A stretch of 64,000 nucleotides of DNA, taken from the NCBI GenBank assembly GCA_021324855.1, contig JAJPIG010000022.1, positions 1-64,000 of the forward strand, given 5' to 3'. The notes beneath the pieces were generated by a model that saw only the letters and a program-made list of their open reading frames with translations, was not told the origin of the DNA and ran no database searches. The stretch is from Pseudomonadota bacterium. GTDB taxonomy: Bacteria > Desulfobacterota > Binatia > Binatales > Binataceae. This document shows, piece after piece, positions 51,839 through 63,431 of the stretch. The first letter of the stretch is position 1. Each line of letters opens with the position of its first letter. The position numbers were made by a program, and so were the translations under genes.

Positions 51839-52519
51839 ATGGACCAGACGAAGTTTCACGCGGAACTCGACAAGCTGTCGGCCGAGTATTCGCTGACCAA
51901 GCATCCCTACTTTGAACTCGTGAGCCGCGGCAAGGCGTCGCGCGAACAGATCAAGCGCTATCCGATCGAGCACTACGCCATGACCGTAAAGGACTCGGGA
52001 ACGCTCTCGGCGCTTGCTTACCTGAACCTGCAGCCCATCGATGCTGAGGCTGCGCAGCAGATGGCGAAGAGTTTCGCGGAAGAGGCGCTCGGAGCGTACA
52101 GCCATAGCGCAAGCCATGCCGAGCTCTTATGCGAGATGTGGGAGCGCGGGCTGGGCCTGCCACGCGAAGAGCTGCTTAATTCAATTGGCTCCGAGGAGTC
52201 GCTCGCCGCGAATGCATTGTTCCATCGGATCGCCAGGGTTAAGCCGGAGTTCCTGGGCGCATTCGGAATGTGCGAGGGGATGGAAGTCTATGCGTATCAT
52301 CAGATGGAGGTCGCGCTGGAAGAGCATTACGGGATGAAAGCGGAGGACCTGCGTTTTCTGAGCGTCCATTACGAAGCCGACAAGGATCACAGCGAAACCG
52401 GCCATTGGCTCATCGATCGGCTGGTTAGCGGAACTGGACGCGAGGAAGAGTTCCTGGCGGAGACCAGGGCGCTGATGCATTCGTTCTGGAAGGGGTTCGA
52501 GTCGATGCTCAGAGTCTGA
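51839..52519 (+). CDS. Haem-oxygenase-like di-iron (HDO) family protein, CADD/PqqC-like
   Basis: This is a 226-aa all-helical protein. The metal-ligand pattern of HDO enzymes is visible: E82 and H89 in FAEEALGAYSHSASH, a Glu in CEGMEVYAY (E146 or E149), and H177, D181 and H184 in VHYEADKDHSE. As I recall, Chlamydia CADD, a self-sacrificing oxygenase that makes para-aminobenzoate for folate, uses Glu81, His88, Glu142, His174, Asp178 and His181, which is nearly the same spacing and protein length. It differs from PqqC, which lacks these metal residues. The reaction is inferred: O2 activation, perhaps for pABA or for a fatty-acid or amino-acid substrate. It is transcribed alone, next to a nitrilase relic. 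Confidence 0.75.
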   Translation: MDQTKFHAELDKLSAEYSLTKHPYFELVSRGKASREQIKRYPIEHYAMTVKDSGTLSALAYLNLQPIDAEAAQQMAKSFAEEALGAYSHSASHAELLCEMWERGLGLPREELLNSIGSEESLAANALFHRIARVKPEFLGAFGMCEGMEVYAYHQMEVALEEHYGMKAEDLRFLSVHYEADKDHSETGHWLIDRLVSGTGREEEFLAETRALMHSFWKGFESMLRV

Positions 52520-52784: not shown

Positions 52785-54935
52785 CTACTGCACGTTCCAG
52801 CGCTCGATTCGATCGTGGAGCGGGGGCGCGTCCGATGCCGCGACTTCGACATCGAGCGCGGTCGCGCATCCGGGACAGAAGTACTCGCGGAGATGGAAGC
52901 TCGCGTTATCGAAGCGTAGCGGACCGGCTGCCGAGAGCGGCATGACGCGCTGCACGGCCTTGTTCTTCCAGTCCTCGTCGGTTCGCGCGAGCCGATGGCC
53001 GCACCAGGTGCACTGCACGACACTATGGCCGTTCTCGGCCGTGGCCTGCAGATATTCGGCGATTCGATACGGCGTGCGTGCGATCGCGCCACGCTCGGTC
53101 ACGCTCGGCGCGAGCTTGTGTCCGATGCGCGCCTCGCGAATTGCGAGGCGGTGCTGACGCGTCGCTTCGACATCGACACCGTGCCCATCGCGCGCAAGCA
53201 CGACGCCATAGATGTCGCGCGCGGGCCCCGCCGAAATCAGCCCCAGACGCAGATCCTCGAACACCAGTTTCGGATCGCGCTCGAGCGGATCACCATAACC
53301 GCCGCCGCCGTCTTGCCGGATGTACAAGACATCGCAAGCGTTGACATCGATCGATCTCGCGAGCGCGTTTTCCGTGTCGCCGCGCGTTGCCTCAAGACTT
53401 GGAGGCAGCTCATCGATATTCGCGTGTCTGAACACCACGCTGTCGGCGGAGCAACTCGGGTAGCCGCCGAAGATTCCCTGCCCCGCGAGATAATGCCTGC
53501 CCTTGCCCGGCGTAAGCGCGGCCTGAAAGCTGTTCTTCTGTCCGGTGCGCGGAACCAGCGCCAGTTCGTGAGTCGGACCGCCGCGGAACTTACCTGGTCC
53601 GCCCGAATCGGGCACGATCCGCCGGTAAAGGAACATCTTCGGAAAGGCCTGCTCCTCGAATTCGACATTTGGCAGCTTCTGCGCCGCGTTGACGATGTGA
53701 CCGCCCGATGCCGCGCCGTCCCGGAACGCGCGTGCGCCCTCGCCCATCCCGAAACAATCGCCGCCCAGCAGGCCGACATGCTCGCCGAAACGATCGACGC
53801 CGTAGGTGGTGTGCACCACAAGCGATCCGACCCAGCATCCGACCGAGCGGCCTTTGTACTTTTCGGACGCGCCGGTGATCTTCGAGAGCACGTGCGCGGA
53901 CATGTTGTTGACGCTGTGCACGCATCCGATGGTTGCGATACAGACCGGCGCGGGACGCTGGCAATTCAAGAGGCTGCCGGGCTCCGCGATTACATCAAGG
54001 CACCGCACGATGCCTTCATTCCAGGTCAGGTCCCACGCGAGGATCGGGAAGAGCGGCGCTACGCTCGCGCCCTTCGTCGCCCAATAGCAGCAATTGATCG
54101 GATAGGGCGCCTGTGGATCGCTGCCGGTGAAATCGTACGTGAGCGAATCGCCGCGCTTGATCGCGGCCATCTCGATTTTGTAGTTGCGGTCCGGAAGATC
54201 GAGGTACTGGCGCGCGCGCCAGGTGCCGTCGGGGAGCTCGGAGAGCCGTTCGCGCAGCCGCTTTTCCGATTGTTCGATCAGTGTCTCGCCGACCGCGTCG
54301 ACGGTCTCGACGCCATAATCCTCGTAGAGCTTCTGCAGACGCTGCTTGGCAACGTTGTCGGCGGCGATCTGCGATCGCAGGTCGAGCCCCGTCATCCCGG
54401 GGTCGCGCACCATGTTCAGAAAAGTCTCGAGCACGTCCTTGCGGATCTTGCCGCGCTCGATCAGCTTGAGACCCTTGGTGCTGAAACCCTCCTGGAAGCA
54501 TTCCTTGGCGTTCGGACAGAAACCGCCGAAATCGATCCCGCCGATGTCGGTCACGTGGACGTAATTGACGACCCAGCTCACGAGTTTGCCGCGAAAGAAA
54601 ATCGGAGAAATCATGAAGATGTCTGGCGTGTGCATTGCGACGGTGTAGGCGTCGTTCACCATGAAGACATCGTCTTCGAAGATTCCCGGATCCTCCGAGA
54701 AGCTCGCAAGGATATGCTTCACCGCCTGGGTGGCCGGAATAATGTGATGCAGGAAGCCGAGGCCGCACAGCAACACGGTCCCGTCCGCGCGATAGAGCGC
54801 GACCAGCAGATCATGGCCCTCTGCCGTCACCGCCGTGCCGGAGACCTTGCCCAGCGTGATGACCGCCTCGTCGATCACGCGGAACAGCTTGTGCCGGATG
54901 ATCTCGAACGTAAAAGGATCGACCGTCGTGTTCAT
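52785..54935 (-). CDS. Hydantoinase B/acetone carboxylase alpha-type subunit with C-terminal zinc ribbon
   Basis: This 716-aa protein has a full HyuB domain (about residues 1-560): DPFTFEIIRHKLFRVIDEA at the start, then FEDDVFMVNDAY and SGGPGKFRGG with DGGGGYGDP. After it comes an extra domain ending in a four-cysteine zinc ribbon: C642 and C645 in CTWCGHRL, and C687 and C690 in FCPGCATALDVEV. That last motif is typical of the separate gamma subunit of acetone and acetophenone carboxylases, so alpha and gamma functions appear fused. With HyuA it should form an ATP-dependent enzyme acting on a ketone, hydantoin or oxoproline-like ring. The specific substrate cannot be read from sequence. Confidence 0.8.
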   Translation of the reverse strand: MNTTVDPFTFEIIRHKLFRVIDEAVITLGKVSGTAVTAEGHDLLVALYRADGTVLLCGLGFLHHIIPATQAVKHILASFSEDPGIFEDDVFMVNDAYTVAMHTPDIFMISPIFFRGKLVSWVVNYVHVTDIGGIDFGGFCPNAKECFQEGFSTKGLKLIERGKIRKDVLETFLNMVRDPGMTGLDLRSQIAADNVAKQRLQKLYEDYGVETVDAVGETLIEQSEKRLRERLSELPDGTWRARQYLDLPDRNYKIEMAAIKRGDSLTYDFTGSDPQAPYPINCCYWATKGASVAPLFPILAWDLTWNEGIVRCLDVIAEPGSLLNCQRPAPVCIATIGCVHSVNNMSAHVLSKITGASEKYKGRSVGCWVGSLVVHTTYGVDRFGEHVGLLGGDCFGMGEGARAFRDGAASGGHIVNAAQKLPNVEFEEQAFPKMFLYRRIVPDSGGPGKFRGGPTHELALVPRTGQKNSFQAALTPGKGRHYLAGQGIFGGYPSCSADSVVFRHANIDELPPSLEATRGDTENALARSIDVNACDVLYIRQDGGGGYGDPLERDPKLVFEDLRLGLISAGPARDIYGVVLARDGHGVDVEATRQHRLAIREARIGHKLAPSVTERGAIARTPYRIAEYLQATAENGHSVVQCTWCGHRLARTDEDWKNKAVQRVMPLSAAGPLRFDNASFHLREYFCPGCATALDVEVAASDAPPLHDRIERWNVQ

Positions 54936-54948
54936 CGATCCGCTCCTT

Positions 54949-57045
54949 TCAGACGAACAGGTGAAGGTTCTTGTAAGGATCGCACCAGGCGCGCTGGCCC
55001 GGATTCACCACCACCGTCGTGATCGGCGTCCAGATGACCGCCGGGCCGTGCACTTCATTGCCGGGCGCGAGCTTCTCGAAGTCGTAGCAATTGGCGCGCG
55101 TGAGTCCGCGCAGCTCGCCGAAGTAGACCTCGCGCGTCTCGACCATCGCCGCGGCCGGATCGGAACCGCGCTCGGCTTCGGGCTTAAGCTCGGGCTTGCG
55201 CAGCAATCCAACCCCGCGCAGCCGGAAGTTGACCATCTCGATGCCGGCCTCCTTGTAACCGGAGCCGGCCCCGAAACGTTCCTCGTAGAGCTTCTCAAAC
55301 GCCGCGATTACGTCGGCCAGTTCACGCTCGCCGAGTTTACCCGCGCTCGCGACCGGAGCGGTCACGACGTGCACCTGGCGCCGAAAACGAAGATCGATTG
55401 CGCGGCTGATCACGATATCGCCGGCGGCGAAGCCCTCCGCGGTGAGCTTGCCGAGCACGCGTTCGGCAAGCTGATCGAAAATCGCGTTGACCTGCGCAGG
55501 ATCGGCCGGCACGCGCAAGGGACGCGTAAGCTGCTCCTCGTGAGTGACATCCGACATCATCAGGCCGAACGCGCCGTGGACCGACGCCGAGTGCGGCACG
55601 ATAACGCGGCTCACCCCGAGCTGGCGCGCGAATGCCATCACGTGCATCCCGGCGGTGCCGCCGTACGAGAACATCACGTAAGATCGCGGATCGAGGCCGC
55701 GCTCGATCGTAAGCTTGTGCAGGAGATCGTAGATGATGCTGTTGGTGAGGCGATAGACCTCGCCCGCCGCCTGCATTACGTCCATCCCGAGCGGCTCGGC
55801 GATCTTCGCGCGGAACACCTCGAGCGCCTTGGCGCGATTCAGCTTCGCGCGGCCGTCGAGGAAGAAGCGATCATCGAGATAACCGAGGATCAGATCGACG
55901 TCGGTGACGGTCGGCTCGACGCCGCCGAAATCGTAGCAAATCGGACCGGGATAGGCGCCGGCGCTCCGCGGGCCGATCCGCGGCGTATGAGTGTACGGAT
56001 CGAGCGAGATTTCGCTGCCGCCAGCGACGCCGATGCTCGCGACGTTCATCTTCGGCAGCGCGTAGTGATAATGCAGGATCATCGGCTCGCGCTCGTAATC
56101 GATCATGCCGTCGCTGACCACGCCGGCCTTGAAGGTCGTGCCGCCCATGTCGACGCCGACGATGTTACGAAAGCCGATGATCTCGCCGAGCGCCTTGCTG
56201 CCGACCAGTCCGCTTACGGGTCCGGATTCGATCAGCCCCACCGGCCGGCTCGCCGCCTCGCGCGCGCCGAGCAATCCGCCGTAGGCCTGCATCACCAGCA
56301 ACGAGCCATCGAAGCGCTGATCGCTGAGCTTCTGCTGCAGGCGGTTCAGGTAATTCGAGATCGCAGGACCGAGCCGCGCGTTCAGCACGACGGTCTGCGT
56401 CCGCTCGAACTCGCCCATAATCGGCGCGATCTCGGACGAAACCGTGCAGAACATCTCGGGATACAGCTCTCGGATGACGCGCTGCGCGGCGAGTTCGTTG
56501 TCGGGCTTCACGAACGACCAGAGAAACGATACGCCGATCGCTTCGGCGCCGTTCTCGGCAAGATGCTGCACGGCGCGCTCGATTTCGCGCGGGTCGGGAG
56601 CCGCGAGCGTCTCACCGTTGGCGTCGACGCGTTCGCGGATGCCGACGATCATCTCGCGCGGCGTCAGCATCGGCGGCCGCGCGACGTTGACAATGTCCTT
56701 CATCTCGTCTTCGGTGCGCCCCGACCATTCGGCGTACCCGCCCCGCATGAGGAACAGCGTATCCTCGAACCCGCGCGTGACGAGCACGCCCGCCTTCACC
56801 ATCTTGTCGTCGACGATCGCATTCTCGGCCATCGTCGTACCGTGCAAAAATAACCGGGTCTGTTTGAGCAGCTCGCCGCGATCGATGCCGAGTTTCTGCG
56901 CGGCGAATTCGAGCGCGTTCAGAATGCCGCCGGAGAAATCGCCGGGTGTCGAGAACGCCTTGGCCACCGTGATCCGGCCCTGCTTATCCATCACCACGCA
57001 GTCAGTGCAGGTACCGCCGATGTCAACGCCGATTACGTATTGCAT
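54949..57045 (-). CDS. Hydantoinase A/acetone carboxylase beta-type subunit
   Basis: This is a 698-aa HyuA-type protein. The ASKHA ATPase phosphate loops are visible: VIGVDIGGTCTDCVV at the N-terminus and VGVDMGGTTFKAGVV near residue 300. The FLHGTTMAENAIV segment and YGGTAGMHVMAFARQLG are family landmarks. It phosphorylates the substrate (enolate or carbonyl) and works with the following HyuB-type subunit, 13 bp downstream. I start at 57045, where GAAAGAGCG precedes the ATG; an in-frame codon 18 bases up is less likely. The pair may be an acetone or acetophenone-type carboxylase, given the zinc ribbon on its partner, or an N-methylhydantoinase. Confidence 0.85.
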   Translation of the reverse strand: MQYVIGVDIGGTCTDCVVMDKQGRITVAKAFSTPGDFSGGILNALEFAAQKLGIDRGELLKQTRLFLHGTTMAENAIVDDKMVKAGVLVTRGFEDTLFLMRGGYAEWSGRTEDEMKDIVNVARPPMLTPREMIVGIRERVDANGETLAAPDPREIERAVQHLAENGAEAIGVSFLWSFVKPDNELAAQRVIRELYPEMFCTVSSEIAPIMGEFERTQTVVLNARLGPAISNYLNRLQQKLSDQRFDGSLLVMQAYGGLLGAREAASRPVGLIESGPVSGLVGSKALGEIIGFRNIVGVDMGGTTFKAGVVSDGMIDYEREPMILHYHYALPKMNVASIGVAGGSEISLDPYTHTPRIGPRSAGAYPGPICYDFGGVEPTVTDVDLILGYLDDRFFLDGRAKLNRAKALEVFRAKIAEPLGMDVMQAAGEVYRLTNSIIYDLLHKLTIERGLDPRSYVMFSYGGTAGMHVMAFARQLGVSRVIVPHSASVHGAFGLMMSDVTHEEQLTRPLRVPADPAQVNAIFDQLAERVLGKLTAEGFAAGDIVISRAIDLRFRRQVHVVTAPVASAGKLGERELADVIAAFEKLYEERFGAGSGYKEAGIEMVNFRLRGVGLLRKPELKPEAERGSDPAAAMVETREVYFGELRGLTRANCYDFEKLAPGNEVHGPAVIWTPITTVVVNPGQRAWCDPYKNLHLFV

Positions 57046-57233
57046 GATCGCTCTTTCACGCACTCAGGTCCTTTAGCGTCCGATGCTTGGTGATTTTCGC
57101 CTCGCGACTTGTGATCCCGATCCAACGTCAACATTCGACGCGAGCTGAAGGTAGCGCTATTTTGCGCCGCTCCCGGCGAAAGTCAAACCAGAATGCCTTC
57201 GGGTTTCACTGGAAAGGCGTCGCAGGAAAATGA

Positions 57234-57674
57234 ATGATCGTCGCGCAAGCCATGGCCTCCGAAGGCTCAGAATTGATCTGCACCGGCTTCGTGGTTTCCG
57301 GCCGCGGCGAGGGCCGTTTGTTCACGACTTTGGATTGGGTGCGCAAGCAGTTCGTTGCGAAGTTCGGATTTGAGCCAATCGCCGGCACGTTCAACATCAA
57401 GATCGGTGCGGAAAGCGAAGCATCGCTCGCTGCCTTGAAACAACATCGCGGCATCGCGATCGAGCCGCCGAATCCCGAGTTCTGCGCCGCCAAATGTTTC
57501 CGCGCGCGCATCGGTTCGATCGAGGGCGCGCTCGTGATCCCGGAAATCCGGGAGTACCCGCGCAATATCCTGGAAATAATGGCTCCAGTAAATCTGCGCG
57601 CAGCGCTCGGCGTTCGCGATGGCGATCGCGTCGAAGTCAGTCTCACTCCGTCGGGCGGCGGCTCCGACCCTTGA
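57234..57674 (+). CDS. CTP-dependent riboflavin kinase (archaeal RibK/DUF120 type)
   Basis: This 146-aa single-domain barrel protein matches archaeal riboflavin kinases, which make FMN from riboflavin using CTP. Landmarks are the GEG loop (GRGEGRLFTTLDWVRKQF, about residues 23-40) and GTFN at 51-54, whose Thr and Asn equivalents bind Mg-nucleotide in the archaeal enzyme. LEIMAPVNLR and GVRDGDRVEV close the barrel. The family is mainly archaeal, so a bacterial copy is unusual. It lies 31 bp before an LLM-class flavin enzyme gene on the same strand, so it may supply FMN for it. The start at 57234 follows AGGA; an ATG at 57252 is the alternative. Confidence 0.82.
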   Translation: MIVAQAMASEGSELICTGFVVSGRGEGRLFTTLDWVRKQFVAKFGFEPIAGTFNIKIGAESEASLAALKQHRGIAIEPPNPEFCAAKCFRARIGSIEGALVIPEIREYPRNILEIMAPVNLRAALGVRDGDRVEVSLTPSGGGSDP

Positions 57675-57705
57675 CTGGATGCGCGGCTGCCGCAAGGATG
57701 CGCCG

Positions 57706-58755
57706 ATGGACGTAGGGCTTTTTTCTGAACTCCAATGTCCGCGCGAAAAGCCGGTCGCTGAGGCCTATCGCGAGATCGTCGCGGAGGGCGAACTGGCCGA
57801 TCGGCTTGGCTTCCGGTCGCTATGGCTCGCGGAGCTCCATTTCACGCGCGACTTCTCAGTGATGCCGGCGCCGCAACTGATCGCCGCGGCGATCGCGGCC
57901 CGCACCCGCCGACTGCGCCTCGGGATCGGCGTCTACATCCTGCCGGTTCACCATCCGCTGCGTCTCGCGGAGGAGTGCGCCGCACTCGATATTCTGAGCG
58001 GCGGACGATTCGACTTCGGCGCCGGCCGCGGCCATCCTTTTACGCGCGTTTACGAAGGCTTCGGTGTCGCCGACAACGAGAGCCGCGAACGCTTCGACGA
58101 ATGCCTCACGATCGTGCGCCGCGCCTGGACCGAGCCCAGCATCACGTTCAAAGGCAAATTCTTTTCATTCGACGATATCGAGGTGCTGCCCAAGCCCGTC
58201 CAGCAGCCGCATCCTCCGATTTATGTCGGCGCGGTCAGCCCGCCCTCGTTCCTGAGCGCCGGCGAGAACGGGTTCAACATCATGTGTCCCGCGCAGGTCA
58301 CGCCGATCCCGGTGCTGAAAGAGATGCTCACGAGCTTCCGCGAGCGCGCGCGCAAGCTTCCATCGCGTCCACGCACGTCACTGCTCCTGCCCGTGTTCGT
58401 CGCGAAAACCCGTGAACAGGCCGAAGGCATCCCACGCGACAGCATCATGTCGTATTACGAAGTCACCGGCCGGCTCATGGCGCAGCTCTTTCAACGCAAG
58501 GGGCTGCCGGAACAGTTCAAGGCCTACGACCAGGTGGGCGGCGTCATGAAGGACCTTACCTACGAGAAAGTGCTCCGTGAATTTGCGGTCCTCGGCGAGC
58601 CGGCTGCGGTGCGCGACCGGTTGTTATATCTCCGCGATGAACTCAAACTCGATGAAGTGCTCGCCTGGATGAACATCGGCGGGCTCGATCACGAGCAGGT
58701 CTCCGCCTCGATGAAGTTGATGGCGGACGAGGTGCTGCCGCACCTCAACCGCTGA
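57706..58755 (+). CDS. LLM-class flavin-dependent oxidoreductase
   Basis: This 349-aa luciferase-like TIM-barrel protein has a start (MDVGLFSELQCPREKPVAEA) and an N-terminal ADRLGFRSLWLAELHF typical of the long LLM group. The flavin-phosphate region reads ECAALDILSGGRFDFGAGRG, and QQPHPPIYVGAVSP is the conserved core segment. I use the ATG at 57706, which is 12 bases after AAGGA; an in-frame ATG at 57679 is also possible. It is downstream of the riboflavin kinase gene and convergent with a Rieske gene, with an 11-bp overlap of the two stops. A monooxygenase acting on a hydrocarbon or aromatic substrate is likely; the substrate is unknown. Confidence 0.82.
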   Translation: MDVGLFSELQCPREKPVAEAYREIVAEGELADRLGFRSLWLAELHFTRDFSVMPAPQLIAAAIAARTRRLRLGIGVYILPVHHPLRLAEECAALDILSGGRFDFGAGRGHPFTRVYEGFGVADNESRERFDECLTIVRRAWTEPSITFKGKFFSFDDIEVLPKPVQQPHPPIYVGAVSPPSFLSAGENGFNIMCPAQVTPIPVLKEMLTSFRERARKLPSRPRTSLLLPVFVAKTREQAEGIPRDSIMSYYEVTGRLMAQLFQRKGLPEQFKAYDQVGGVMKDLTYEKVLREFAVLGEPAAVRDRLLYLRDELKLDEVLAWMNIGGLDHEQVSASMKLMADEVLPHLNR

Positions 58756-60112
58756 CGATGGAATGGCCGGCGCGCCGGCTGCGCGACGGCATGCGTGCGG
58801 CGCTCGAGGATCGGCGGGTCCGGCGTCGATCGCCGTTGGTAATCTGGCGATGCCATCGGCGCCAGAACGCGCGCATCGTTTCCTCATCGGTCACCAGGGC
58901 GGGACGGCCCATCCCGCGTGAGAACTGACACCAGGACACTTCCTTAGTGGCGCGAAACCCGCGCTGACACGATTCCATCGCCTCGACGTCGTCGACTGTT
59001 CCGAGACCGCCCGGACCGAGAAAGCTGACGAGGTTGTCATGGCGGTACCGGCGCCAGCCAGCCGCCTCACCGCGCGGCCCGAAGGTCCAGACCGTAACGT
59101 CCATCTGATCGGGAGCCGTCGGCCAGCAAATCCGCAACGCCGTTCCCCAGATGTCGAGGATCATCAGGTTCGGATAGATGACCAGGTTGCGGTCGAGCCG
59201 CGCCATTCGGCTCGCGCGTTCGACGCCGAAGCGTTCGACCAGGCGACCGTACAACGCGTCCAGCTCGCGCTTGACCGCTTCGCCCAGCCGCGGTTCCCAT
59301 CGCGCGATCGGCCGGCTCCCCGGCAGCGGCCGCTCCATCACTGAATGGCCGTTGCCAAGATCATAGGCGCGCCCGATCAGGCCCGGGCCGGCGATGCCAT
59401 TTACCTGCTCCAGGTACTTTAGATAAGTGCTGTGCAGCGGCGCGACATGGTAGTCGTCGATGGTGTTTTCGACCTGCATCTTCCAGTTCGCGCGAACCGA
59501 GTACTGATGCTCGCCGCCCACCACCTCGATGCCCGTCTCCGAAAGGTCGAGGATGAGATCGAGATATTCGCGCGCGCCGGCCAGGTAATCAGCGAAGTCT
59601 TCGATCGCCGGGTCGAAGCTCGCGAATATCAGCCCCCGGTAGTTGACGGTTCGCGGCGGTGGCCGGAGCGCAAAGTCCTCTTTGCGAAAGCCGGGTGCAT
59701 AACCGGCCGCGTCCGGGACGCCGATCAGATCGCCGGCGTTGTTATAGGTCCACGCGTGATAGAAGCATTGGAAGCTGCGCGCGTTTCCCGACGCCTCGCG
59801 GCACACCTGGGCTCCGCGATGGGTGCAGCTATTGATTAGAACGCGAACCGTGCCCGCGGTATCGCGACAGAGAAGCAGCGGTCGCCCGGCGACGTCGCGA
59901 GTGCGGAAATCGCCCGGCTGTGAAACCTCTGACTCGTGGCCGACGTAGAGCCATGAATGATTGAAAATTCGCTCCCGTTCGAGATCGAAAATTTCGCGCG
60001 ATACATAAGCGTCGCGATGTACGCGGAAGGTGCAACTCCGCGTGTCTTCGACCACCAGTTCCTTCAGCCGGGAGCTTTCCATCTCCGGATGGCCGCGCGT
60101 CTTAATTCTCAT
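58745..60112 (-). CDS. Rieske non-haem iron oxygenase, alpha-subunit type
   Basis: This is a 455-aa ring-hydroxylating oxygenase. The Rieske site is C96/H98 (CTHRG) and C116/H119 (CFYHA). The catalytic iron ligands D219, H222 and H227 are in DDYHVAPLH. It is not closely similar to the Rieske protein at 18665-19897; the region between the two sites and the C-terminus differ. The last 25 residues are Arg/Ser-rich and look like readthrough past the usual end. Its start shares ATGA with the LLM gene upstream, so the two are co-translated. No ferredoxin, reductase or beta-subunit is present, so it probably borrows electron carriers. Confidence 0.85.
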   Translation of the reverse strand: MRIKTRGHPEMESSRLKELVVEDTRSCTFRVHRDAYVSREIFDLERERIFNHSWLYVGHESEVSQPGDFRTRDVAGRPLLLCRDTAGTVRVLINSCTHRGAQVCREASGNARSFQCFYHAWTYNNAGDLIGVPDAAGYAPGFRKEDFALRPPPRTVNYRGLIFASFDPAIEDFADYLAGAREYLDLILDLSETGIEVVGGEHQYSVRANWKMQVENTIDDYHVAPLHSTYLKYLEQVNGIAGPGLIGRAYDLGNGHSVMERPLPGSRPIARWEPRLGEAVKRELDALYGRLVERFGVERASRMARLDRNLVIYPNLMILDIWGTALRICWPTAPDQMDVTVWTFGPRGEAAGWRRYRHDNLVSFLGPGGLGTVDDVEAMESCQRGFRATKEVSWCQFSRGMGRPALVTDEETMRAFWRRWHRQITNGDRRRTRRSSSAARMPSRSRRAGHSIVSG

Positions 60113-61227
60113 CCCGCTGACGCGCCAAACGCCGCCGCGTCGGCGGAGTCGGCGCTCGGCAGCGGTGGCAGCCGCTTCACCTCGGGCATCACCTCGGCGG
60201 CGAACAACCGCATGCTGCGTTCGGCATCATCGTATGGCATCCCGGCGTAGCTGAACACCGCGTTGAAGTGATCGGCGTGCACGCGCCGGCGGATGTCGTC
60301 GATCTTCTCGATGCACTGCGCGGGCGTGCCCCAGACCTGCAGGCCGACGAAATACTCCGCGGCGGCATCGCCACCCGACTTCGCCAGATGCTTCGAGATC
60401 TCGCGGTAGAATTCGTAGCCCTTCGCTTTCCCGAAATGCTCCGCCGTCATCTCGTAATGACGCAGCGCCGTATGCCAATACCCGCCGATGTAGCGCATCG
60501 CCATCTCGTGCGCGCGGTCCGCGTTCTCGTCGCAGAAGACCCATCCCGAAGCGATCGTCGGCGGCGGCTCGGCTGCGTTCGCATCCCGATAGATCGCGCG
60601 ATATTCGCCGAGCTCCTTCGCGACCGCCTCCCACGGCTTCTGCGGGATGATCAGAATCCCGATGCCGAGCTTCGCCATGATGCGCGAGGATTCGGGCGAA
60701 ACCGCCGCGGCGTAGGTGCGGCCCTTGAACGACTTGAGCGGCTTCGGCCGGATGTCGCGGCGGGGTTGCTGGATATGGCGGCCGTCGAACTCGATGAAGC
60801 CCTGCTCGAGGCCTTCGAGAACCATGGTCGCATATTCGATGAAGCGCTCGCGTGACTCGTCCAGCGAGAGGCGAAAGCCCTCGAACTCGAGCCGCGCGAG
60901 GCCGCGGCCGAGGCCGAGAATCACGCGCCCGTTGGAATAATGATCGAGCACCGAGACCTGCTCGGCGACGCGGATCGGATCGTGCCACGGCAATACGACC
61001 ACCATCGAGCCGAGCTGGATCCGTTGCGTGCGGCCCGCGTAGTACGAAAGGAACTGCATCACGTCGGGGCACATCGTGTAGTCGTCGAAATGATGCTCGA
61101 CGCTCCAGATCGAATCGAACCCCAGCGGCTCGACCAGGTCGCCCAGCTTGAGCTCGCGGCGATAGACCTCGAAATCGGGGCGCTCGTTGAGCGGGTTCTG
61201 GAATATGATCGCGGTGCCAACCTTCAT
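60109..61227 (-). CDS. LLM-class flavin-dependent oxidoreductase
   Basis: This is a 372-aa luciferase-like protein. The opening TAIIFQNPLNERPDF and LGFDSIWSVEHHFDDYTMCP (about residues 36-55) are typical of the long LLM subgroup with a His-His pair near the flavin. The core has EQVSVLDHYSNGRVILGLGRG. It starts at an ATG preceded by AAGGAG and overlaps the Rieske gene at its end (ATGA). Co-translation of a flavin monooxygenase and a Rieske oxygenase suggests two successive oxidations of one compound. It is divergent from the alpha/beta hydrolase gene, with 136 bp between the starts. Confidence 0.85.
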   Translation of the reverse strand: MKVGTAIIFQNPLNERPDFEVYRRELKLGDLVEPLGFDSIWSVEHHFDDYTMCPDVMQFLSYYAGRTQRIQLGSMVVVLPWHDPIRVAEQVSVLDHYSNGRVILGLGRGLARLEFEGFRLSLDESRERFIEYATMVLEGLEQGFIEFDGRHIQQPRRDIRPKPLKSFKGRTYAAAVSPESSRIMAKLGIGILIIPQKPWEAVAKELGEYRAIYRDANAAEPPPTIASGWVFCDENADRAHEMAMRYIGGYWHTALRHYEMTAEHFGKAKGYEFYREISKHLAKSGGDAAAEYFVGLQVWGTPAQCIEKIDDIRRRVHADHFNAVFSYAGMPYDDAERSMRLFAAEVMPEVKRLPPLPSADSADAAAFGASAG

Positions 61228-62123: not shown

Positions 62124-63431
62124 ATGCATATCGCCTACTTCAGTGAACGTCCTTACCATCCGCTCGACGAAGAGCTGACGATCGCTGAGGGCATCTGGGG
62201 TATTTCGAACCGCCATTTCGATCCGGCCAACGGCGCGCGCCTCTACAACGAATATCTCGACCAGGCGGTGCGCGCTGAAGAGGCGGGCTACGACGGCATC
62301 GTACTGAACGAACATCACGGGCTCGTCACCTGCATGGGCGCGGTCGCGAATATCGAAGCCGCGATCCTCGCGCGCATCACGCGGCGATGCAAAATCATTC
62401 TGTTGGGCAACCTCCCGACCATCGTGGGCAATCCCCTGCGATTGGCTGAGGAGCTGGCCGAGATCGATCTGATTTCCGGCGGCCGGCTGGTCAGCGGAAT
62501 CGTGCGCGGCGGCGGCACCGAGCAGCTCTCGAATGGCTTCAACCCGGCCTACAATCGCGAGTACTTTCTCGAAGCGCACGATTTCATCATCAAGGCGTGG
62601 ACGACGCCCGGGCCGTTCCGCTACGAGGGCAAGCACCTGCACTATCGGTTCGTCAATCCGTGGGCGCTGCCGCTCCAGAAGCCGCATCCTCCCATCTGGG
62701 TGCCGGGTCTCGTCAGTCCGGAGACGGTGAATTTCTGCGCCGAGCGGCGTTATCCATATGTTGCACTGTCGACTTACCTGGAACCGACGATCGATCTATG
62801 GAACCTCTATTGCGAGACCGCCGCGAAGGCGGGTTACCAGGCCGGGCCCGAGAATTTCGGCTACCTGCAAAAGGTGATCGTCGGCGAGACCGAAACCGAG
62901 GCGCGCGAGCTCGCGATGCTGGAGTTGCAGGGCGGACGCGCGGCGGCATTCGGGGCGATCCGGCCTGAGTTCATGTTCCCGTCGGGCTACAACTCACGCG
63001 ATGCATCGCGACGGATGGGCCGCCAGTTCCGGAATCCGAAGGGCGGACCCGAGCTTTACGTCCCGCGCGGCAAGTTCGACGTGCGCGAGGCCAAGGCAAT
63101 CATCAACCACCCCGAGCAACTCAAGATTCTGGAGGACAGTTATCGAATCATCGTCGGCACGCCGGCGAGCGTGATTCCGAAGATTCGCAAGCTTCTCGAC
63201 GTGCTGCGGCCGGGCGTGTTCATCATCCGGCACAACGACGGTCCGGTCGATCATGCAACCCGGATGCGCACCATCGATCTGATCGGGCGCGAGTTGCTTC
63301 CGGCGCTGAAGGAGATCGGCGAGAAAATGGAATTGCCGAGCCCGTTCGATCGCGCGCCGGGAAGCCGTCCGTTGGCTGGGACTGGCAAATGGCAGAGCGT
63401 CGCGCGCGCCGAAGCGCTCGCCGCACTCTGA
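62124..63431 (+). CDS. LLM-class flavin-dependent monooxygenase
   Basis: This 435-aa luciferase-like protein, the longest of the LLM set, has AYFSERPYHP at the start, EAGYDGIVLNEHHGLVTCMG (about residues 54-73) and LAEIDLISGGRLVSGIVRGG. The NPWALPLQKPHPPIWVPG core is nearly the same as the NPWPRPLQKPHPK segment of the LLM at 7693-8907, so these two belong to one subfamily. Both have an N-E-H-H motif. It is coupled to the alpha/beta hydrolase that ends 1 base before it. The C-terminus is longer by about 30 residues. A role in aromatic or ketone oxidation is inferred. Confidence 0.84.
   Translation: MHIAYFSERPYHPLDEELTIAEGIWGISNRHFDPANGARLYNEYLDQAVRAEEAGYDGIVLNEHHGLVTCMGAVANIEAAILARITRRCKIILLGNLPTIVGNPLRLAEELAEIDLISGGRLVSGIVRGGGTEQLSNGFNPAYNREYFLEAHDFIIKAWTTPGPFRYEGKHLHYRFVNPWALPLQKPHPPIWVPGLVSPETVNFCAERRYPYVALSTYLEPTIDLWNLYCETAAKAGYQAGPENFGYLQKVIVGETETEARELAMLELQGGRAAAFGAIRPEFMFPSGYNSRDASRRMGRQFRNPKGGPELYVPRGKFDVREAKAIINHPEQLKILEDSYRIIVGTPASVIPKIRKLLDVLRPGVFIIRHNDGPVDHATRMRTIDLIGRELLPALKEIGEKMELPSPFDRAPGSRPLAGTGKWQSVARAEALAAL

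Follow-up and report, generated by a model that had tools for sequence, protein, structure and literature searches.

A riboflavin kinase gene of the archaeal, CTP-dependent type ahead of a luciferase-like oxidoreductase gene: an odd member of a bacterial branch that mostly accompanies UbiX

The riboflavin kinase of bacteria is usually taken to be RibF, which works with ATP. The CTP-dependent, archaeal type is represented by RibK MJ0056 (PDB 2vbs/2vbu/2vbv), a single-domain protein, and by RbkR of Thermoplasma acidophilum (PDB 5trd, 3cta), a bifunctional regulator that carries a winged-helix domain next to its kinase domain. A further relative is the DUF120 protein encoded in the phenylphosphate carboxylase operon of Azoarcus sp. 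KH32C (AZKH_RS23515, WP_015451796.1), with homologues in Rhodocyclales/Aromatoleum. Here, we compare these systems with a gene of a bacterium of the Binataceae (assembly GCA_021324855.1; 3.7 Mb in 38 contigs, 96% complete). The window referred to below is the whole stretch of 64,000 nucleotides that was analysed (positions 1 to 64,000 of contig JAJPIG010000022.1), and the features of the locus are collected in Table 1.

Table 1. The kinase locus and its surroundings; positions are nucleotides of the window unless given as residues of the kinase.
Feature	Position	Strand	Basis
Hydantoinase A/acetophenone carboxylase-like subunit (hyuA-like), divergent neighbour	54949..57063	-	PF01968, PF05378, PF19278
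Divergent intergenic region, 170 bp, putative promoter of the kinase–LLM pair	57064..57233	.	gene arrangement
AGGA ribosome-binding-like site, 5 nt ahead of kinase ATG	57225..57228	+	sequence
CTP-dependent (archaeal-type) riboflavin kinase gene, 146 aa	57234..57674	+	PF01982
Predicted kinase sites	residues: nucleotide loop G23-R-G-E-G-R28; metal T52, N54; flavin/catalytic E114; second nucleotide segment ending at R122; bacterial signature C84		alignment to MJ0056
AAGGA ribosome-binding-like site ahead of LLM1, 7 nt from start	57694..57698	+	sequence
LLM1, luciferase-like (LLM) oxidoreductase, cofactor FMN or F420	57706..58755	+	PF00296 8e-60
Rieske ring-hydroxylating oxygenase alpha subunit	58745..60112	-	PF00848, PF00355
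LLM2, luciferase-alpha-like	60109..61227	-	PF00296 1.2e-62
LLM3	62124..63431	+	PF00296 7e-32

The initial annotation had read the gene as a riboflavin kinase of RibK type from three motifs, all of which are found in the protein (GEG as part of GRGEGR, GTFN, and LEIMAPVNLR), and the family assignment is backed by sequence, predicted fold, and active-site residues. The Pfam profile PF01982 (CTP-dep_RFKase) matches residues 20–136 with 117.5 bits (4.3e-34; cut-off 25), and phmmer against the PDB retrieves TA1064/RbkR (1.6e-15) and MJ0056 (3.8e-14). The scores for the NCBIfam equivalogs of archaeal RibK lie below both cut-offs—78 versus 168 bits for ribK_Meth and 106 versus 279 bits for PRK14165. 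This is the mark of a divergent bacterial member and bars the archaeal-equivalog name, not the wider PF01982 membership. The protein is not a member of the RibF profile TIGR00083. Nor do its 146 residues include an N-terminal winged-helix/HTH domain, which sets it apart from bifunctional regulators of the RbkR type; an identity as HTH regulator was rejected on this ground, and with it the grouping with non-kinase regulators that would have refuted the initial annotation.

An AlphaFold2 model, built from 31 aligned sequences, has a mean pLDDT of 89.7 with low confidence for residues 1–8, and its predicted fold is that of RbkR/MJ0056 (RibK). Entries of RbkR or MJ0056 fill the first eight places of the Foldseek list, with CTP-bound RbkR (5trd) at E 2.7e-12 and a TM of about 0.81–0.82. 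VIA scores 5trd_B at Z 20.0 and 2vbv_A, which contains CDP and FMN, at Z 17.7, the first unrelated row being at 6.4. In an alignment of 78 rows, T52, N54, and E114 are invariant in every row, that of the window included, and the window kinase keeps G25, E26, G27, R28, A117, P118, and R122 as in MJ0056—positions whose roles toward metal, flavin, and CDP we take to be those seen in the MJ0056 structures 2VBU/2VBV. The GTxN metal-ligand motif, the catalytic Glu, the GxGEGR loop, and the LR segment are hence all present. Besides, the window kinase carries Cys84 within a signature of Phe or Tyr followed by CxA (here FCAAKCF); 64 of the other 65 bacterial rows share this cysteine, whereas all 12 archaeal ones lack it.

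The genome's sole RibF match lies on another contig (C31; 238 bits, cut-off 184), which makes the window kinase an additional, accessory one. All 17 further bacterial carriers that were examined likewise have RibF, and the two archaea examined gave none or a weak partial match. By profile, the genome further encodes one true UbiX (contig C34) against 12 UbiD homologues, these UbiX and UbiD genes being spread over contigs C2, C4, C9, C13, C25, and C34, as well as the F420 gene product CofD.

As first annotated, the kinase gene stands directly before an LLM gene. The arrangement is operon-like: 31 bp separate the kinase stop from the most likely LLM1 start, each gene has its own Shine-Dalgarno-like site, and the two presumably form a two-gene operon, to judge from the sequence. 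Upstream lie two hydantoinase A/B-like genes in divergent orientation, and beyond LLM1 follow the Rieske oxygenase, two further LLM genes, and an alpha/beta hydrolase gene. Of the initial claim of three FMN-using LLM genes, the three Bac_luciferase genes stand, all within 6 kb; their use of FMN is not established, since none reaches an FMN-fixing NCBIfam cut-off and the genome also encodes CofD. A genome of the same genus (G001) has an LLM1 orthologue (72%) without the kinase gene—either before it or elsewhere—near which another LLM gene as well as an oxygenase, a hydrolase, and a dioxygenase (the last three named by sequence reading) are located. UbiX, UbiD, ppc, and IDI2 genes are absent within 8 kb of the window kinase, and a profile search for UbiX/UbiD found none on its contig, so a hidden UbiX or UbiD in the cluster was rejected. 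Two neighbours are unusual in themselves: the C-terminal stretch of the hydantoinase B-like subunit (52785–54935, minus strand) matches acetone carboxylase gamma (PF08882, 3e-7) in an uncommon fusion, and a haem-oxygenase-2/TENA/CADD-like protein is encoded beside the cluster (51839–52519, plus strand).

By profile search, PF01982 occurs in 39 of 193 relatives. Across the phylum, 40 of 395 genomes have it, as do 8 of 400 in the phylum to which the Chloroflexi MAG G198 belongs. A scan of genome contigs with the single protein gave no relative, whereas a closer alignment set (A2) did: the DNA scan with it yielded 45 named loci, to which a plasmid search added Azoarcus sp. KH32C. In this plasmid-borne locus, the kinase gene overlaps ubiX (ATGATG) within an operon of ppcB-D-A-G, ubiD, and ubiX for phenylphosphate carboxylase and is followed by a NUDIX gene—an order that recurs in nearly all of about 30 Betaproteobacteria (mostly Rhodocyclales) and that one Chloroflexi MAG shows as well, except for the NUDIX gene. 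The usual partner set in the window's class is yqeB, moxR, coxE, xdhC, kinase, and ubiX, mostly with a type 2 IPP isomerase; representatives of UbiX, IDI2, and YqeB exceed their NCBIfam cut-offs. UbiX adjoins the kinase in 32 of the 34 loci of this class; it is missing beside the window kinase and in L205, where the contig breaks off at the kinase gene. It is likewise adjacent in all but one of 31 proteobacterial loci (L069, whose contig starts at the gene). This set was selected through a sequence motif and leans toward one branch, unlike the profile-based sets. In other classes of the phylum, UbiX is adjacent in 17 of 39 loci and some prenylated-FMN (prFMN) or phenylphosphate gene in 27; of the other 12, 11 have an HAD phosphatase adjacent or fused. 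Such prFMN or phenylphosphate genes also lie beside 3 of 8 loci of the Chloroflexi phylum, and UbiX beside none of 10 archaeal loci. The window copy is thus the odd one out in an established bacterial branch of mostly UbiX partners: it has the Cys84 of this branch and lacks the adjacent ubiX. Among 112 bacterial loci it is also the only one with an LLM gene within 8 kb—as seen with reference proteins (phmmer, E 1e-4), which remote LLM or UbiX relatives may escape, and with several loci cut at contig ends. Hence, the kinase–LLM pairing is without comparative support in bacteria.

Several of these neighbourhoods have features of their own. A conserved cluster in the window's class (L036:1283-11382; also L072, L073, L076, L078, and L201-L218) holds YqeB, MoxR, CoxE, two XdhC, the DUF120 kinase, UbiX, type 2 IPP isomerase, a PNPOx-like protein, a small protein, and HlyD/ABC/MacB, and thereby unites selenium/molybdenum-hydroxylase maturation genes with an apparent prenylated FMN set. 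The DUF120 kinase is fused to an HAD phosphatase in L167:6522-7595 (checked with Pfam), and long open frames of other classes (L170, L177, L180, L183, L188, L192) place it in fusion with or beside one. These genes recall the HAD–riboflavin kinase fusion of plants, but the DUF120 kinase is of the unrelated archaeal type. In phenylphosphate carboxylase operons, a NUDIX hydrolase gene comes right after the kinase gene (L045:12467-13012, with homologues in the L046-L085 set); as a guess, its product could provide UbiX with dimethylallyl phosphate by cleaving the diphosphate. Finally, on two haloarchaeal plasmids (L108:1274-5066 and L109:1235-5863), genes for an LLM oxidoreductase and for an SDR or alpha/beta hydrolase immediately precede that of a CTP-dependent riboflavin kinase. 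This may parallel the arrangement in the window, though it consists of two loci, one of them encoding a longer protein adjoining ribB.

For the window gene, we consider it about an even chance that it encodes an active, RibF-independent accessory riboflavin kinase of the CTP-dependent type, which is co-transcribed with LLM1 so that the FMN supply rises with a flavin-using step. The cradle-loop-barrel enzyme would phosphorylate riboflavin to FMN, the likeliest nucleoside triphosphate being CTP (CTP specificity is not readable from sequence), and would thereby duplicate the kinase half of RibF. The GRGEGR loop together with the APVNLR segment would bind the nucleotide, T52 and N54 the metal, and E114 would stand at the ribityl hydroxyl; joint transcription would raise the FMN supply along with the catabolic step of LLM1. 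Membership in PF01982, the similarity to MJ0056 and TA1064, the predicted fold, the invariant residues, the RibF elsewhere, and the 31-bp spacing with two Shine-Dalgarno-like sites argue for this reading, of which we infer the kinase activity, the use of CTP, the co-transcription, FMN as limiting product, and LLM1 as its consumer. Extra FMN for the LLM pathway, as initially proposed, is plausible by position alone; a local FMN supply as such gains support from the relatives, whose operons contain the FMN-consuming UbiX and offer a precedent in context. Against the reading as a whole count the missed NCBIfam equivalog cut-offs, the LLM neighbour that no other examined bacterial locus has, the same-genus LLM1 orthologue that has no kinase gene, and CofD, given which LLM1 may depend on F420. 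An alternative that we regard as rather unlikely is a general accessory kinase with no dedicated client, a spare source of FMN (e.g., at ATP shortage) that came to stand before LLM1 by chance. It would agree with the absence of the kinase from all other searched genomes of the window's family and with sister rows of other classes (L168, L170, L173, L174, L177, L184, L188, and L192) that are mostly HAD-linked or fused and share no common flavoenzyme neighbour, but the tight spacing to an LLM1 gene with its own Shine-Dalgarno-like site argues against chance. In another alternative, the FMN is meant for prenylated-FMN synthesis, with the window gene as a displaced member of the UbiX-partner branch and LLM1 as a fortuitous neighbour. 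The 12 UbiD homologues with their single true UbiX point this way, as does the UbiX adjacency of almost every relative from the window's class and from Betaproteobacteria. However, neither UbiX nor UbiD was found within 8 kb or, by profile, on the contig, and the larger tree puts the window kinase nearer (92/78) to the HAD-linked group than to the UbiX-linked ones; we hold this explanation to be unlikely. Loss of kinase activity, leaving a flavin- or nucleotide-binding protein or a regulator on the RibK fold, appears very improbable. The low equivalog scores would fit it, as would the altered nucleotide loops of some bacterial relatives (DLGQAS-type, with A for G51 and K for R122, among the UbiX-linked members of the window's class), yet the window kinase keeps every MJ0056 site residue checked, has no HTH domain, and retains an intact predicted fold.

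The same trees bear on the origin of the gene, for which a transfer from Archaea had been suggested. With archaeal RibK and bacterial homologues included, bacteria and archaea split in the first tree (98/87) and in the larger one (98/93)—the exceptions being L027 and the very long L200—and the window kinase lies on the bacterial side. Its sister in the larger tree (92/78, unstarred) is the mostly HAD-linked group. A recent acquisition of an archaeal RibK gene by the host bacterium would suit its GEGR loop, which is nearest to the archaeal consensus, and its long end branch in the first tree, and forcing it together with the archaea is 23 log units worse without being rejected by the AU test (p 0.10; 132 columns). 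Against such a recent event stand the closest matches, which are bacterial (52% and 50% versus 27–37% for archaeal loci), the bacterial side of the split, and the Cys84 shared with the bacterial rows. A recent archaeal donor is therefore extremely unlikely, and the suggestion is not supported in this form; an ancient transfer, where the bacterial branch begins, is possible. Also counting against a recent event, the GC content of the kinase gene (0.608) is near that of the window (0.629). Its GC3 is 0.72 versus 0.79–0.86 in four neighbouring genes, and base composition, a little on the low side, was set aside as an argument for transfer.

Taken by itself, the window gene is of modest weight; of more interest is how bacterial DUF120 kinases associate with UbiX. 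UbiX–UbiD systems need FMN and dimethylallyl phosphate, and certain enzymes of these systems are difficult to obtain in active form in foreign hosts. Tentatively, and with somewhat less than even confidence, we propose that many bacteria keep an archaeal-type, CTP-fuelled kinase beside RibF as a dedicated source of FMN—above all for UbiX and prFMN—and that the window kinase was redeployed to an LLM oxidoreductase; type 2 IPP isomerase, NUDIX, or HAD genes would perhaps supply the dimethylallyl phosphate. If this is true, prenylated-FMN operons contain a second, unrelated, and probably CTP-driven kinase, and a conserved gene annotated as DUF120 gains a concrete, testable role in UbiX–UbiD systems. 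The window copy would then suggest a kinase module that can be attached to other flavin enzymes. No paper linking riboflavin kinase to phenylphosphate carboxylase or UbiX/prenylated FMN was found in a search with thin coverage of subscription journals, and a prior mention is possible.

Among the known systems, the bifunctional riboflavin kinase/FAD synthetase RibF performs the same reaction from riboflavin to FMN, but belongs to an unrelated sequence family, depends on ATP, and has its separate gene in the genome. The DUF120 proteins of the KH32C type share 41–52% identity, the FCAAKCF signature, and the catalytic residues with the window kinase; their genes follow UbiX in ppc/UbiD operons, whereas none of these three kinds of gene was found near the window kinase. 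RbkR is the best structural match, alike in its kinase domain and different in its winged-helix domain. MJ0056, at 33% identity, differs from the window kinase, which has the bacterial Cys84, a RibF in the same genome, and a place before an LLM gene. Nevertheless, the two have in common PF01982, the single-domain architecture, the fold (rmsd 2.0 over 127), the nucleotide loop, the T/N metal pair, the catalytic Glu, and the LR segment.
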